Of a DNA stretch of 64,000 nucleotides, positions 15,737 to 63,672 are shown in pieces. This DNA comes from Prevotella sp. tf2-5 (GTDB lineage Bacteria > Bacteroidota > Bacteroidia > Bacteroidales > Bacteroidaceae): NCBI RefSeq assembly GCF_900115435.1, contig NZ_FOWK01000003.1, positions 248,001-312,000 on the forward strand, written 5' to 3'. Under the pieces are notes generated by a model. That model was not told the DNA's origin, did no database searches, and worked only from the letters and a program-made list of their open reading frames with translations. The translations under genes were made by a program, and so were the position numbers. Position 1 is the first letter of the stretch. Each line of letters starts with the position of its first letter.

Positions 15737-15818
15737 CTGTCTCTATGTGTAAAAACAAAATAATCCTGCTATCCCTGCTATAATGTGGCTGAAATGCTGA
15801 TAAATAAAGGGCGGAGCC

Positions 15819-15881
15819 TGTAGCACAATCAGGATTTATCCTGCTACAATCGTGCTACAACCCTGCTACCATCCCCCTACC
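15819..15881. repeat. Palindrome plus 4 x 11-bp array
   Basis: TGTAG...CAGGAT-TT-ATCCTG-CTACA (15819-15848) overlaps the first of four 11-bp units at 15838-15848, 15849-15859, 15860-15870 and 15871-15881, consensus ATCCTGCTACA. The same palindrome-then-11-mers layout is seen at 62641-62703 with unrelated sequence. Confidence 0.8.
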
Positions 15882-15915
15882 AGATGACATTTTGAGACAA
15901 CGACTATTGTTTGAG

Positions 15916-15981
15916 CGGTTTGAAAACGGCTATAGGCGTTCAGTTGTTTGGCTGGAGCCGTTCAGTCGTTTGGCTATAGCC
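15916..15981. repeat. 3 x 22-bp array
   Basis: Units 15938-15959 and 15960-15981 share GTTCAGT-GTTTGGCT-AGCC. A degenerate unit at 15916-15937 keeps GGCTATAG in the same phase. Confidence 0.75.
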
Positions 15982-16149
15982 GAACGGTTGAAAGGATGCT
16001 TCTAACTCCCTCGAAGGGCGTACCTAATACCCCATCACCCGTAATCTGTTACCCCTGTGTAAGGCACCTTTAACGGCGGTCGGAGATATCGGAATGAGGG
16101 ATTGAATCAAATAAATTTGCATTCTCTTCACTAAATCGAAATTTTGCAC

Positions 16150-33009: not shown

Positions 33010-33141
33010 TTCATTTACCCATTCCTCTTTCCAATATCTGTTATTCCTCATAGTAATATTTACTTACCCCTTATAGGAGATACTGCCATAACTCTTAAGA
33101 GATATTCTCTCGCCCCTTAGGAGATACTGGGATATCCCATG
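33010..33141. repeat. 6 x 22-bp degenerate array
   Basis: Units start at 33010, 33032, 33054, 33076, 33098 and 33120. Shared in-phase text includes AATAT/AGATA at the left and CCTCTT/CCCCTTA-type text at the right; GGAGATACTG recurs at 33076 and 33120, exactly 44 bp apart. 132 bp in total, the same length as the array at 63288-63419. Confidence 0.75.
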
Positions 33142-51848: not shown

Positions 51849-51902
51849 GCCTAAGCACGGTGAAGAGCCGTTGTTCGTAAGTGTTTGAAGCATCCTAAAC
51901 GG

Positions 51903-51990
51903 TTGTCGACTCCAGTCAACAGACTTGCTGACTCCAGTCGACAACATTGTTGACTCCAGTCGACAGGGTTGCTGACTCTAAGTCAGCAGC
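51903..51990. repeat. 4 x 22-bp palindromic array
   Basis: Units at 51903, 51925, 51947 and 51969, each starting TTG. Each is a palindrome of the type TGTTGACT-CC-AGTCGACA followed by a 3-nt linker. The array begins 54 bp after pyrH and ends one base before the stop codon of the converging gene (51991). Confidence 0.92.
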
Positions 51991-61883: not shown

Positions 61884-61939
61884 ACTCGGAAATCAAAATC
61901 TAAGTAATCAAATAAACAAGTAAACTAAAAGAAAAAGAG

Positions 61940-62482
61940 ATGAAAAAAATAGCCATCATATCATTAATGACCATACTATCTTCTGTGGCTTGTCACGCTG
62001 GTGATGAAGTTTGTACATCTGGTGCATGTGGACAAGGAAGCCCAGGTTCTGTAAGGTTGAACTTAGAAGTGAATGCACTCACGGCTTTTCGTAATAAGGG
62101 GATGACGATGCATGGTTATAACTTTGACGCTGCCATCAGTATTTATAGAAATATCTATGCATTGGGAAGTTTCGAGATGTTGTCTTATCATGCAAATAAA
62201 AGTAAAACTTACTTTAATAGTACAGGCTTATCCGGAGGCTTGGTCTATAACATCATAGATAGGGATAATACCACGATTCCTTTAAAAGTAAAAATGGGAG
62301 GAACTTTGGGTAATCCGGACTGGAAATACACATTCTATGACCTCTCTCTTGCCCTTAACCAAAGACTTGGAAAGTCAAATTTTGCAGGTGTTGTCGGAAT
62401 TGGCTATAGATATGAATACTCACGAGTTGAAGCAATGTCAAGTCACGGGTTCGTTTATGTTTTTTTCGGAATTAAGATATAA
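61940..62482 (+). CDS. Small outer-membrane beta-barrel protein
   Basis: 180 aa. Signal peptide about 1-20 (SSVACHAGD), a Cys-containing segment (EVCTSGACGQGSPGS), then about eight amphipathic strands (for example VRLNLEVNALTAF, AAISIYRNIYALGSFEMLSY, GVVGIGYRYEYSRVEA) and a final strand GFVYVFFGIKI. No family recognised. Probably controlled by the divergent TPR-HTH regulator. The first 50 bp of its leader and start are duplicated at 63191. Confidence 0.7.
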   Translation: MKKIAIISLMTILSSVACHAGDEVCTSGACGQGSPGSVRLNLEVNALTAFRNKGMTMHGYNFDAAISIYRNIYALGSFEMLSYHANKSKTYFNSTGLSGGLVYNIIDRDNTTIPLKVKMGGTLGNPDWKYTFYDLSLALNQRLGKSNFAGVVGIGYRYEYSRVEAMSSHGFVYVFFGIKI

Positions 62483-62643: not shown

Positions 62644-62703
62644 AATAGTTGGAGGTTGACTCAACCTCCAACTATTCTCTCACTAACCTCCAACTAACCC
62701 CTC
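62641..62703. repeat. 39-bp perfect palindrome plus two 11-bp units
   Basis: Arms of 19 bp (62641-62659 and 62661-62679, core TTGGAGGTTGA/TCAACCTCCAA) around a single C. Then ACTAACCTCCA (62682-62692) and ACTAACCCCTC (62693-62703). Confidence 0.9.
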
Positions 62704-62824
62704 CCTACATGAAATTTTTAAAACCCTTGCAATCGTTGCCGCCTTGCAAAACTGTTTAATAATCAGGTGATTACAGGTGACAAGGACGAAAAATCGTTGC
62801 CGCTAGTTGCCGCTAAATGCCGTT
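62702..62824 (+). repeat. 123-bp inverted repeat, arm A
   Basis: Starts TCCCTACA and ends TAAATGCCGTT. Aligns without gaps to the reverse complement of 63501-63623, with about 15 mismatches counted by eye. Contains GTTGCCGCTA twice in tandem. Confidence 0.92.
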
Positions 62825-62856
62825 CCCTTTTGACGCCACTATCTCCTATGAAAGTA

Positions 62857-62900
62857 AATTTTAGTGAATTTACTCACCAAATTCAGTGAATTTACTGAGA
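62857..62900. repeat. 2 x 22-bp array, relative of 811-898
   Basis: Units 62857-62878 and 62879-62900 share AGTGAATTTACT; the linker ACTCACCAAAT also occurs at 825-835. Confidence 0.85.
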
Positions 62901-63190: not shown

Positions 63191-63296
63191 AATCAAATAA
63201 ACAAGTAAACTAAAAGAAAAAGAGATGAATAAAATAGCCATCCATCTGTATTCACCTTACTCCCACGGAGGTGCCACCTTCCTGTTTGTTCCATAG
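63191..63296 (+). pseudogene. Duplicated 5' end of the 61940 gene, truncated
   Basis: About 50 bp (63191-63241) nearly identical to 61907-61957, that is the leader, the presumed ribosome-binding stretch AAAGAAAAAGAG and the first six codons (MNKIAI for MKKIAI). Identity then stops, and the frame ends at TAG 63294-63296 after 23 codons, inside the first 22-bp unit. Confidence 0.75.
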
Positions 63297-63441
63297 GGTG
63301 GAACACTTTGTTCCATGGGGTGGAATAACTTGTTCCATAGGGTGGAACAAGTTATCCCCTTAGTTCGGATAAAAGATCCCTATGCCTGGGATGGTTGATC
63401 CCAATGCTTGGAATAATCGATCGGAGTGCCTTCTCTCTCCC
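63288..63441. repeat. 6-7 x 22-bp palindromic array
   Basis: Units at 63288, 63310 and 63332 have the form GTTCC-N7-GGAAC plus 5 nt. Units at 63354, 63376 and 63398 keep the 22-bp phase but switch to an ATCCC-N7-GGGAT-type palindrome plus 5 nt. A seventh unit (63420-63441) is degenerate. Confidence 0.92.
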
Positions 63442-63500: not shown

Positions 63501-63623
63501 AACGGTATTTAGCGGCAACTAGCGGCAACGATTTTTCGTCCTTGTCACCTGCAATCGCTTGACAATCAAATACTTTTGCAAGGCGGCAACGGTGACAAGG
63601 GTTTGAAAAATTACGTGTAGGGA
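63501..63623 (-). repeat. 123-bp inverted repeat, arm B
   Basis: Reverse complement of arm A (62702-62824), same length, ungapped, about 88% identical by eye. The outer ends (TCCCTACA) point away from the enclosed 676 bp. Confidence 0.92.
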
Positions 63624-63672
63624 GAACGACGGGTAAATCTTCCCCTATTATGGTGTACTTTTTCCCTAAAAA

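Follow-up and report, generated by a model that had tools for sequence, protein, structure and literature searches.

We found that the intergenic regions of Prevotella sp. tf2-5 harbor short tandem arrays whose units nearly always keep one length, 22 bp, across several families of unlike sequence, and that these arrays are often parts of dispersed elements. The observation, first made in a preliminary description of the 64,000-nucleotide stretch analysed here (the window), is thereby confirmed, and its kind is already known; what is new is the lineage, the dispersed elements that also carry partner modules, and a unit structure of cores and linkers, measured here, in which half-sites follow an 11-bp ruler. 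The families are dispersed, their spacing is fixed, their units divide into cores and linkers and, within our sample, the arrays are restricted to one lineage. We give about an even chance to the reading as a whole, namely that these are MITE- or REP-like dispersed elements whose dyad cores, two helical turns apart, are probably bound by a protein. The source genome (3.51 Mb in 23 contigs, 99.95% complete) finds its top dnaE matches among rumen Prevotella species, at identities of 91% or less, and we thus regard it as a rumen-type Prevotella.

The 22-bp period and its distribution

Periodicity was scored with a lag-k test, in which at least 17 of 22 bases equal the base k positions further along, while "intergenic" refers to a crude mask comprising whatever the longest ORFs of 80 aa or more leave uncovered. 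The window holds seven intergenic clusters at lag 22 and four at lag 44, with at most one at any other lag between 12 and 60. The genome-wide excess predicted in the preliminary description is borne out by 800 kb of the same genome fetched blindly, i.e., without regard to repeats, and counted after removal of short-period runs: it yields 18 intergenic clusters at lag 22, 12 at lag 44 and 5 at lag 66, against no more than three at each of the other lags from 13 to 65. By the ORF mask, 18 of the 21 lag-22 clusters in this sample lie outside ORFs and are hence mostly non-coding. Scaling from 18 per 800 kb, some 80 arrays would be expected genome-wide. Plain autocorrelation without the cluster threshold is much weaker; in the intergenic part of our first own-genome sample (457 kb, partly centred on matches to family A, see below, and therefore biased), lag 22 stands 3.1 sd over the mean of lags 5–100 and is second to lag 8.

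Tandem Repeats Finder (TRF) analysis of all the own-genome DNA (1.257 Mb) identified 32 intergenic arrays of period 22, compared with two of period 21 and two of period 23, so that the unit lengths are far from an even spread over 18–26 bp. Period 11 is represented by 21 intergenic arrays, period 10 by nine and period 12 by seven, and the 11-bp half-period runs described earlier in the window were recovered at 15838, 32896 and 62663. A second favoured tandem period in these genomes is 7 bp, with 36 intergenic TRF arrays in the 1.257 Mb and 89 in the relatives' loci described next, where 8 bp follows in rank.

Among the relatives, we examined 80 loci around dnaE, one per species and all from other species, of at most about 24 kb each (1.68 Mb). 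Here 24 intergenic clusters at lag 22 are spread over 20 loci, accompanied by 18 at lag 44, 15 at lag 21, 9 at lag 42 and 3 at lag 23, and the remaining lags from 13 to 66 give at most five each. The class as such is therefore best defined as 21–23 bp with a peak at 22, and the earlier claim of a period of exactly 22 holds for the genome of origin only. The unit sequences are unlike between these species. Outside the genus we surveyed the order Bacteroidales through 20 of the 59 genomes that had a pyrH match (19 from other families and one from another genus of the same family), taking one stretch of 10–20 kb around pyrH from each. In these 383 kb, of which 34 kb are intergenic, we detected no intergenic cluster at lags 20–23 or 44, while the relatives' rate predicts about seven lag-22 clusters in this amount of DNA.

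Unit families and the elements that carry them

Merging lags 22 and 44 gave a list of 47 arrays in the 1.257 Mb, and 37 of them could be sorted by eye into seven unit families, each present at two to nine unlinked loci:

Family A, GTTCCA-N5-TGGAAC, nine loci
Family B, GGCTNNAGCC, four loci
Family C, GACTCCAGTC, three loci
Family D, AGTAAATTCASTGAATTTACT, seven loci
Family E, GAAGGYGSCRCCTTC, eight loci
Family F, AGATACTGG.ATA, four loci
Family H, TTTCCTACCGACAAAC, two loci

The arrays range from 2 to about 12 units; some have 4–12 and many have two or three. A whole-genome pattern scan placed family A at nine loci, and among 149 congeners, which were searched for this family alone, it was found in four, usually at several loci each. 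The window itself contains the following arrays and associated elements:

800–899, unstranded: array of family D (AGTAAATTCACTGAATTTACT), about four units, with a 44-bp higher-order period (lags 22 and 44; TRF periods 22 and 44)
932–977, unstranded: weak AT-rich two-unit lag-22 run outside the sorted families (lag test)
15762–16070, plus strand: dispersed element holding array B, with a copy at L166:12205-12499, 83.5% identical over 309 bp (alignment)
15927–15985, plus strand: array of family B (GGCTNNAGCC core), about three units, identical in the L166 copy (lag test, alignment)
33069–33140, unstranded: weak array of family F (AGATACTGG.ATA), detected at lag 44 alone (lag test)
51849–51898, plus strand: leader of the family C element, partly common to L011, L144 and the orthologous site of L091 (alignment)
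51899–51990, plus strand: array of family C (GACTCCAGTC core), four units, between pyrH and a DUF4834 gene (lag test, Pfam)
62662–62708, unstranded: short lag-22 run, also with an 11-bp period (AACCTCCAACT) (TRF, lag test)
62701–62824, minus strand: partner module, inverted copy, an imperfect hairpin of about 120 bp adjoining array D (alignment; fold computed on another module copy)
62855–62900, unstranded: array of family D, two units, flanked by CTCCTATG/GATAGGAG (sequence reading, lag test)
63280–63441, plus strand: array of family A, GTTCCA/TGGAAC half-sites alternating every 11 bp (TRF, lag test, unit statistics)
63501–63624, plus strand: partner module adjoining array A (alignment)

Five of the six arrays originally described pass the lag-22 test (at 800–899, 15927–15985, 51899–51981, 62855–62900 and 63280–63360), whereas the sixth, placed at 33010–33141, is weak, since only its part at 33069–33140 passes and does so at lag 44 alone. 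Two further lag-22 runs, at 932–977 and 62662–62708, came on top of the 22-bp arrays described. The array at 63280–63441 begins with three clear units, which are followed by drifted ATCCC/GGGAT units in phase. Its change from GTTCC/GGAAC to ATCCC/GGGAT had been reported to leave the phase intact, and the 22-bp phase is indeed kept over seven units counted by eye; yet the second type does not look like an unrelated family, its units having, as judged from sequence, the appearance of drifted members of family A.

We found that the arrays often lie inside dispersed non-coding elements of about 100–370 bp. The flanks of family B are common to the window (15762–16070) and locus L166 over 309 bp, and the array is identical in this pair although the whole alignment reaches 83.5%. 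Family F flanks are shared by L152 and L171 (231 bp, 91%), and the flanks of E together with D by L160, L168 and L173 (219–240 bp, 87–91%); shared flanks extend over 371 bp for an E locus and 108–130 bp for C. In another genome (G056), all six fetched family A arrays lie in mutually alignable elements, most pairs over about 280–300 bp at 70–83%. Flanks common to several loci indicate that the arrays travel as parts of dispersed elements. The preliminary description held that period, not sequence, defines the arrays. The spacing is indeed kept while parts of the sequence change; in contrast, 37 of the 47 arrays fall into seven recurring families, many with common flanks at unlinked loci, which means that sequence is copied too. 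A leader or partner module is common to loci in families A, C and D, the ends of the elements are not sharply defined, and a 9-bp inverted repeat (ATCTCCTAT/ATAGGAGAT) bounds one D element. As separate observations, E and D arrays stand side by side in one compound element of 219–240 bp at L168, L173 and L160; a dyad centre CTNNAG recurs, by eye only, in several otherwise unrelated units, namely those of families B and C and of L046, L053 and L083; and a further palindromic insert, a long inverted repeat centred on GGGGGACGGTTCTTTTGTGAC, is found in L039 in and near its biotin ligase-like ORF.

A second repeat is found near many family A arrays. Five of the nine own loci have it within about 0.3 kb, as a module of about 120 bp with the potential to form an imperfect hairpin, and copies of this module also adjoin D arrays in the same genome. 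The window array A together with its partner module aligns with L024 over 331 bp at about 82.5%. Repeated modules of about 80–130 bp occur near seven of the eight family A loci fetched from G142 and near all six from G056, with a different module sequence in each species, while in G035 the module of the window genome was recognised at two of the six family A loci fetched. RNA fold z-scores, computed on one module copy each, were −1.9, −3.5 and −4.4. In each of three species, family A arrays have beside them a hairpin module that agrees in size but not in sequence between the species; it is conceivable, though unlikely, that array and module together make up a single element. Within the window, the inverted 120-bp module copies at 62701–62824 and 63501–63624 (88% identical) flank arrays D and A and enclose about 0.9 kb. 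The start region of the ORF at 61940–62482 is also duplicated here (61906–61977 and 63191–63261, 89% over 72 bp); the second copy ends at the start of the array A element and is perhaps an insertion scar.

The fate of the arrays over time can be followed beside pyrH, where array C lies between pyrH and the convergent DUF4834 gene (Pfam). At this site the window genome and L091 share the leader and four units, but the unit measures 22 bp in the former and 23 bp in the latter, with loop and linker changed in all units. The corresponding spacer is 22 bp long in L029, 16 bp in G149 and an unrelated 49 bp in G035, while that of L094 holds a 21-bp array of other sequence, and in L087 an array with 23-bp units follows pyrH at a distance of a few hundred bases downstream. 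Elsewhere, an orthologous array is common to one species pair (L036 and L033). Arrays thus come and go rapidly, and they evolve in a concerted manner. That one spacer bears unrelated arrays, or none, in other species is unlike what a site needed by the neighboring genes would show.

Anatomy of the unit and readings of its fixed length

The internal structure of family A was analysed by whole-genome scans of five genomes with the pattern GTTCCA-loop-TGGAAC-linker-GTTCC, counting both strands and overlapping units and leaving loop and linker each free at 1–12 bp. Loop and linker were 5 and 5 bp in 74 of the 76 listed matches; one of the five genomes gave no match. Cores were also located irrespective of offset; among the 81 steps of no more than 120 bp that separate neighboring cores, 79 were multiples of 22 (71 of 22, seven of 44 and one of 66), the other two being 45 and 50. 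With a 5-bp loop, a 5-bp linker and 22-bp core steps, the family A half-sites alternate every 11 bp. The rate of change per site, pooled for 126 units from 35 loci, amounts to 0.069 in the arms, 0.365 in the loops and 0.397 in the linkers. The pooled arm rate is biased low, as units were chosen by their arms, and we replaced it by a one-arm selection test: among units chosen by the left arm alone, the right arms are changed at 17 of 390 bases. Loops drift most in G142 (0.49 per site). That short dyad cores stay at a constant distance from one another although the intervening sequence drifts is a new detail.

Unequal conservation is not confined to family A. In 34 arrays of at least 3.5 units, which represent many families, the variable columns lie close together within the unit (z 8.3), and this clustering exceeds that of simulated arrays passed through the same detection, a check for edge artefacts (29 arrays, z 3.1–6.9; 4.1–6.6 with ends trimmed). 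The statement that most units are short palindromes proved too strong, for a significant dyad (consensus shuffle, p ≤ 0.05) is present in 12 of 37 own arrays and, by the same test, in 7 of 30 intergenic arrays of the relatives; we accordingly rejected the idea that every unit is built on a dyad.

We propose that the satellites sit in dispersed non-coding intergenic elements (about 100–370 bp, MITE- or REP-like) that a putative copying activity would spread around the genome, while whole units would be gained, lost and homogenised inside the element, so that arrays change in concert. The family A unit may be described as a dyad core of two 6-bp half-sites, 11 bp centre to centre; this spacing places one half-site per helical turn and makes the unit two turns. 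The fixed length would most likely stem from a putative DNA-binding protein that needs neighboring sites on one helix face. Such a protein, its cooperative binding, a mobiliser and any function for the cell are what we infer. Three causes had been proposed for the arrays before, namely phased protein binding, hairpins and a repeat-generating activity; each retains some probability, and conservation that is specific to positions along the unit favors protein binding. Several results count against bound cores as the best explanation. Significant dyads are confined to a minority of arrays, arrays of three families fold well as RNA (see below), and the spacer beside pyrH is occupied differently from species to species. 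In addition, 16 grid positions between recognised family A cores lack a core, their arms deviating at 108 of 192 bases, and loops in G056 change only slightly more often than arms (0.042 vs 0.031 changes per site), so that the linker alone drifts there. Moreover, unequal conservation along the unit can also come from shared recent descent.

The main rival would be a ruler in the duplication process itself, whereby slippage or recombination duplicates DNA in a preferred two-turn step and the arrays are neutral, their length being set by the machinery. We consider this doubtful, though a serious contender. It would account for the many unrelated units of one length, including arrays without a clear dyad, for the commonness of 11-bp half-period arrays (21 intergenic TRF arrays vs nine at 10 bp and seven at 12 bp), for the speed at which spacers acquire and drop arrays and for the 44-bp higher-order units; the 7-bp arrays common in these genomes suggest that tandem growth is easy there. 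What it explains poorly is the position-specific conservation along the unit and the occurrence of families with their flanks at unlinked loci, which means that the arrays were not all born in place, and the empty Bacteroidales sample would require the machinery to be lineage-specific. Protein binding, to which we give about an even chance, is the best supported reading, and a duplication ruler is its main rival. Unlikely, but consistent with a ruler of 11/22 bp kept while the sites fully turn over, is a lineage-specific element in which spacing is the heritable trait, maintained through one or more putative proteins of fast-changing specificity that would assemble on alternating half-sites one turn apart.

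Arrays that are transcribed into RNA hairpins, with units acting as stem-loops in 3' end protection, termination or as sponges, make up a quite unlikely alternative. Three arrays, one each from families A, C and D, fold well as RNA (z −6.1, −4.5 and −7.9), as expected of palindromic arrays, own arrays are enriched between convergent genes (10 vs 4.7 expected; 7 vs 4.9 in the relatives), and 52-nt satellites are reported to be transcribed in Bacillus coagulans (PMC8161180). The array at 63288 does have a pair of compensating substitutions between its units, from GTTCC/GGAAC to ATCCC/GGGAT, a change already described in the preliminary account. Yet family A overall shows five paired changes against a shuffled mean of 2.3 and a maximum of 9, beside 90 other changed pairs; for family D the figures are three against 2.3 expected, with 50 one-sided changes. 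With no clear excess of paired changes in families A and D, selected RNA stems lack support, and 8 of 35 own arrays lie between divergent genes. A role as terminators was considered on account of the convergent enrichment and rejected, as arrays occur in all gene orientations. At the gathering score, Rfam recognised no RNA family except tRNA in the window and seven array loci.

That the arrays are REP elements mobilised by the genome's own RAYT, a Y1 tyrosine transposase, is very improbable and largely refuted. Small intergenic palindromes in dispersed copies would fit it, and one family is REP-like (GAAGGYGSCRCCTTC), but the genome has just two Y1 transposase loci. Neither of them (3.2–3.4 kb) contains a lag-22, 23 or 44 run, and families A, D, E, F and H are absent from both when up to two mismatches are allowed. 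The cores of B and C, being short, match there with one or two mismatches, as expected of such words, and the broken Y1 locus has one lag-21 run. The intact Y1 gene is flanked by another palindrome, GGGGACAGTCCC, and RAYT-driven REPs are not supported, the RAYT gene having no array repeats in its flanks. At this locus (L177; G000:C7, about 176 kb), CTCACA-GGGGACAGTCCC-TGTGAG palindrome pairs occur beside the intact RAYT-like Y1 gene and downstream of it.

Known systems and significance

A 2020 Journal of Bacteriology paper by Subirana and Messeguer reportedly gives satellite sizes of 22/44 and 52. These authors describe bacterial tandem repeats of constant size (20–23 or 52 nt) and variable sequence (PMC8161180, also PMC6749651), with several families per species that are mostly non-coding, species-specific and without known function, and with short words common to the repeats of one species; the authors propose a protein polymerising on DNA, about 21 nt being two helical turns (PMC8161180). 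The Prevotella arrays agree with these satellites in having one preferred length (22 here, 21–23 in relatives), several unrelated families in one genome (seven, by eye, from 37 of 47 arrays), a family restricted to few species (family A, 4 of 149 congeners) and a mostly non-coding location (18 of the 21 clusters at lag 22 in the blindly chosen 800 kb). They differ in their 2 to about 12 units, many being below the search threshold of 4 used for the satellites, in their placement within dispersed elements with common flanks, and in the core-and-linker structure with 11-bp alternating half-sites that we measured. The satellite paper covers Bacillus, and the passages compared here do not name Prevotella (PMC8161180).

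BrickBuilt of Porphyromonas gingivalis, a related member of the order, is described as tandem 23-nt units without spacers in a dispersed intergenic MITE with leader and tail, the unit number differing between strains at conserved loci (PMC4596501). By description, it resembles our arrays in placing tandem units inside a dispersed intergenic MITE-like element, but BrickBuilt is one 23-nt family at 19 loci of one species, whereas the present Prevotella has at least seven families in one genome and a unit of 22 bp. The REP/BIME sequences associated with RAYT transposases are small intergenic palindromes in dispersed copies and mosaics (PMC2817692, PMC3733652, PMC3116915); unlike them, the Prevotella arrays have no RAYT beside them, and different palindromes surround the RAYT that the genome encodes. 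In the part of the Prevotella literature covered, we recognised no earlier report describing such arrays.

Fixed-size satellites are known in many bacteria, without a function or cause having been found. The present genome offers short arrays at many loci, a core that is separable from the linker, and an orthologous array shifted as a whole from 22 to 23 bp, which together open to experiment the choice between a protein that reads the spacing and a copying machinery that sets it.
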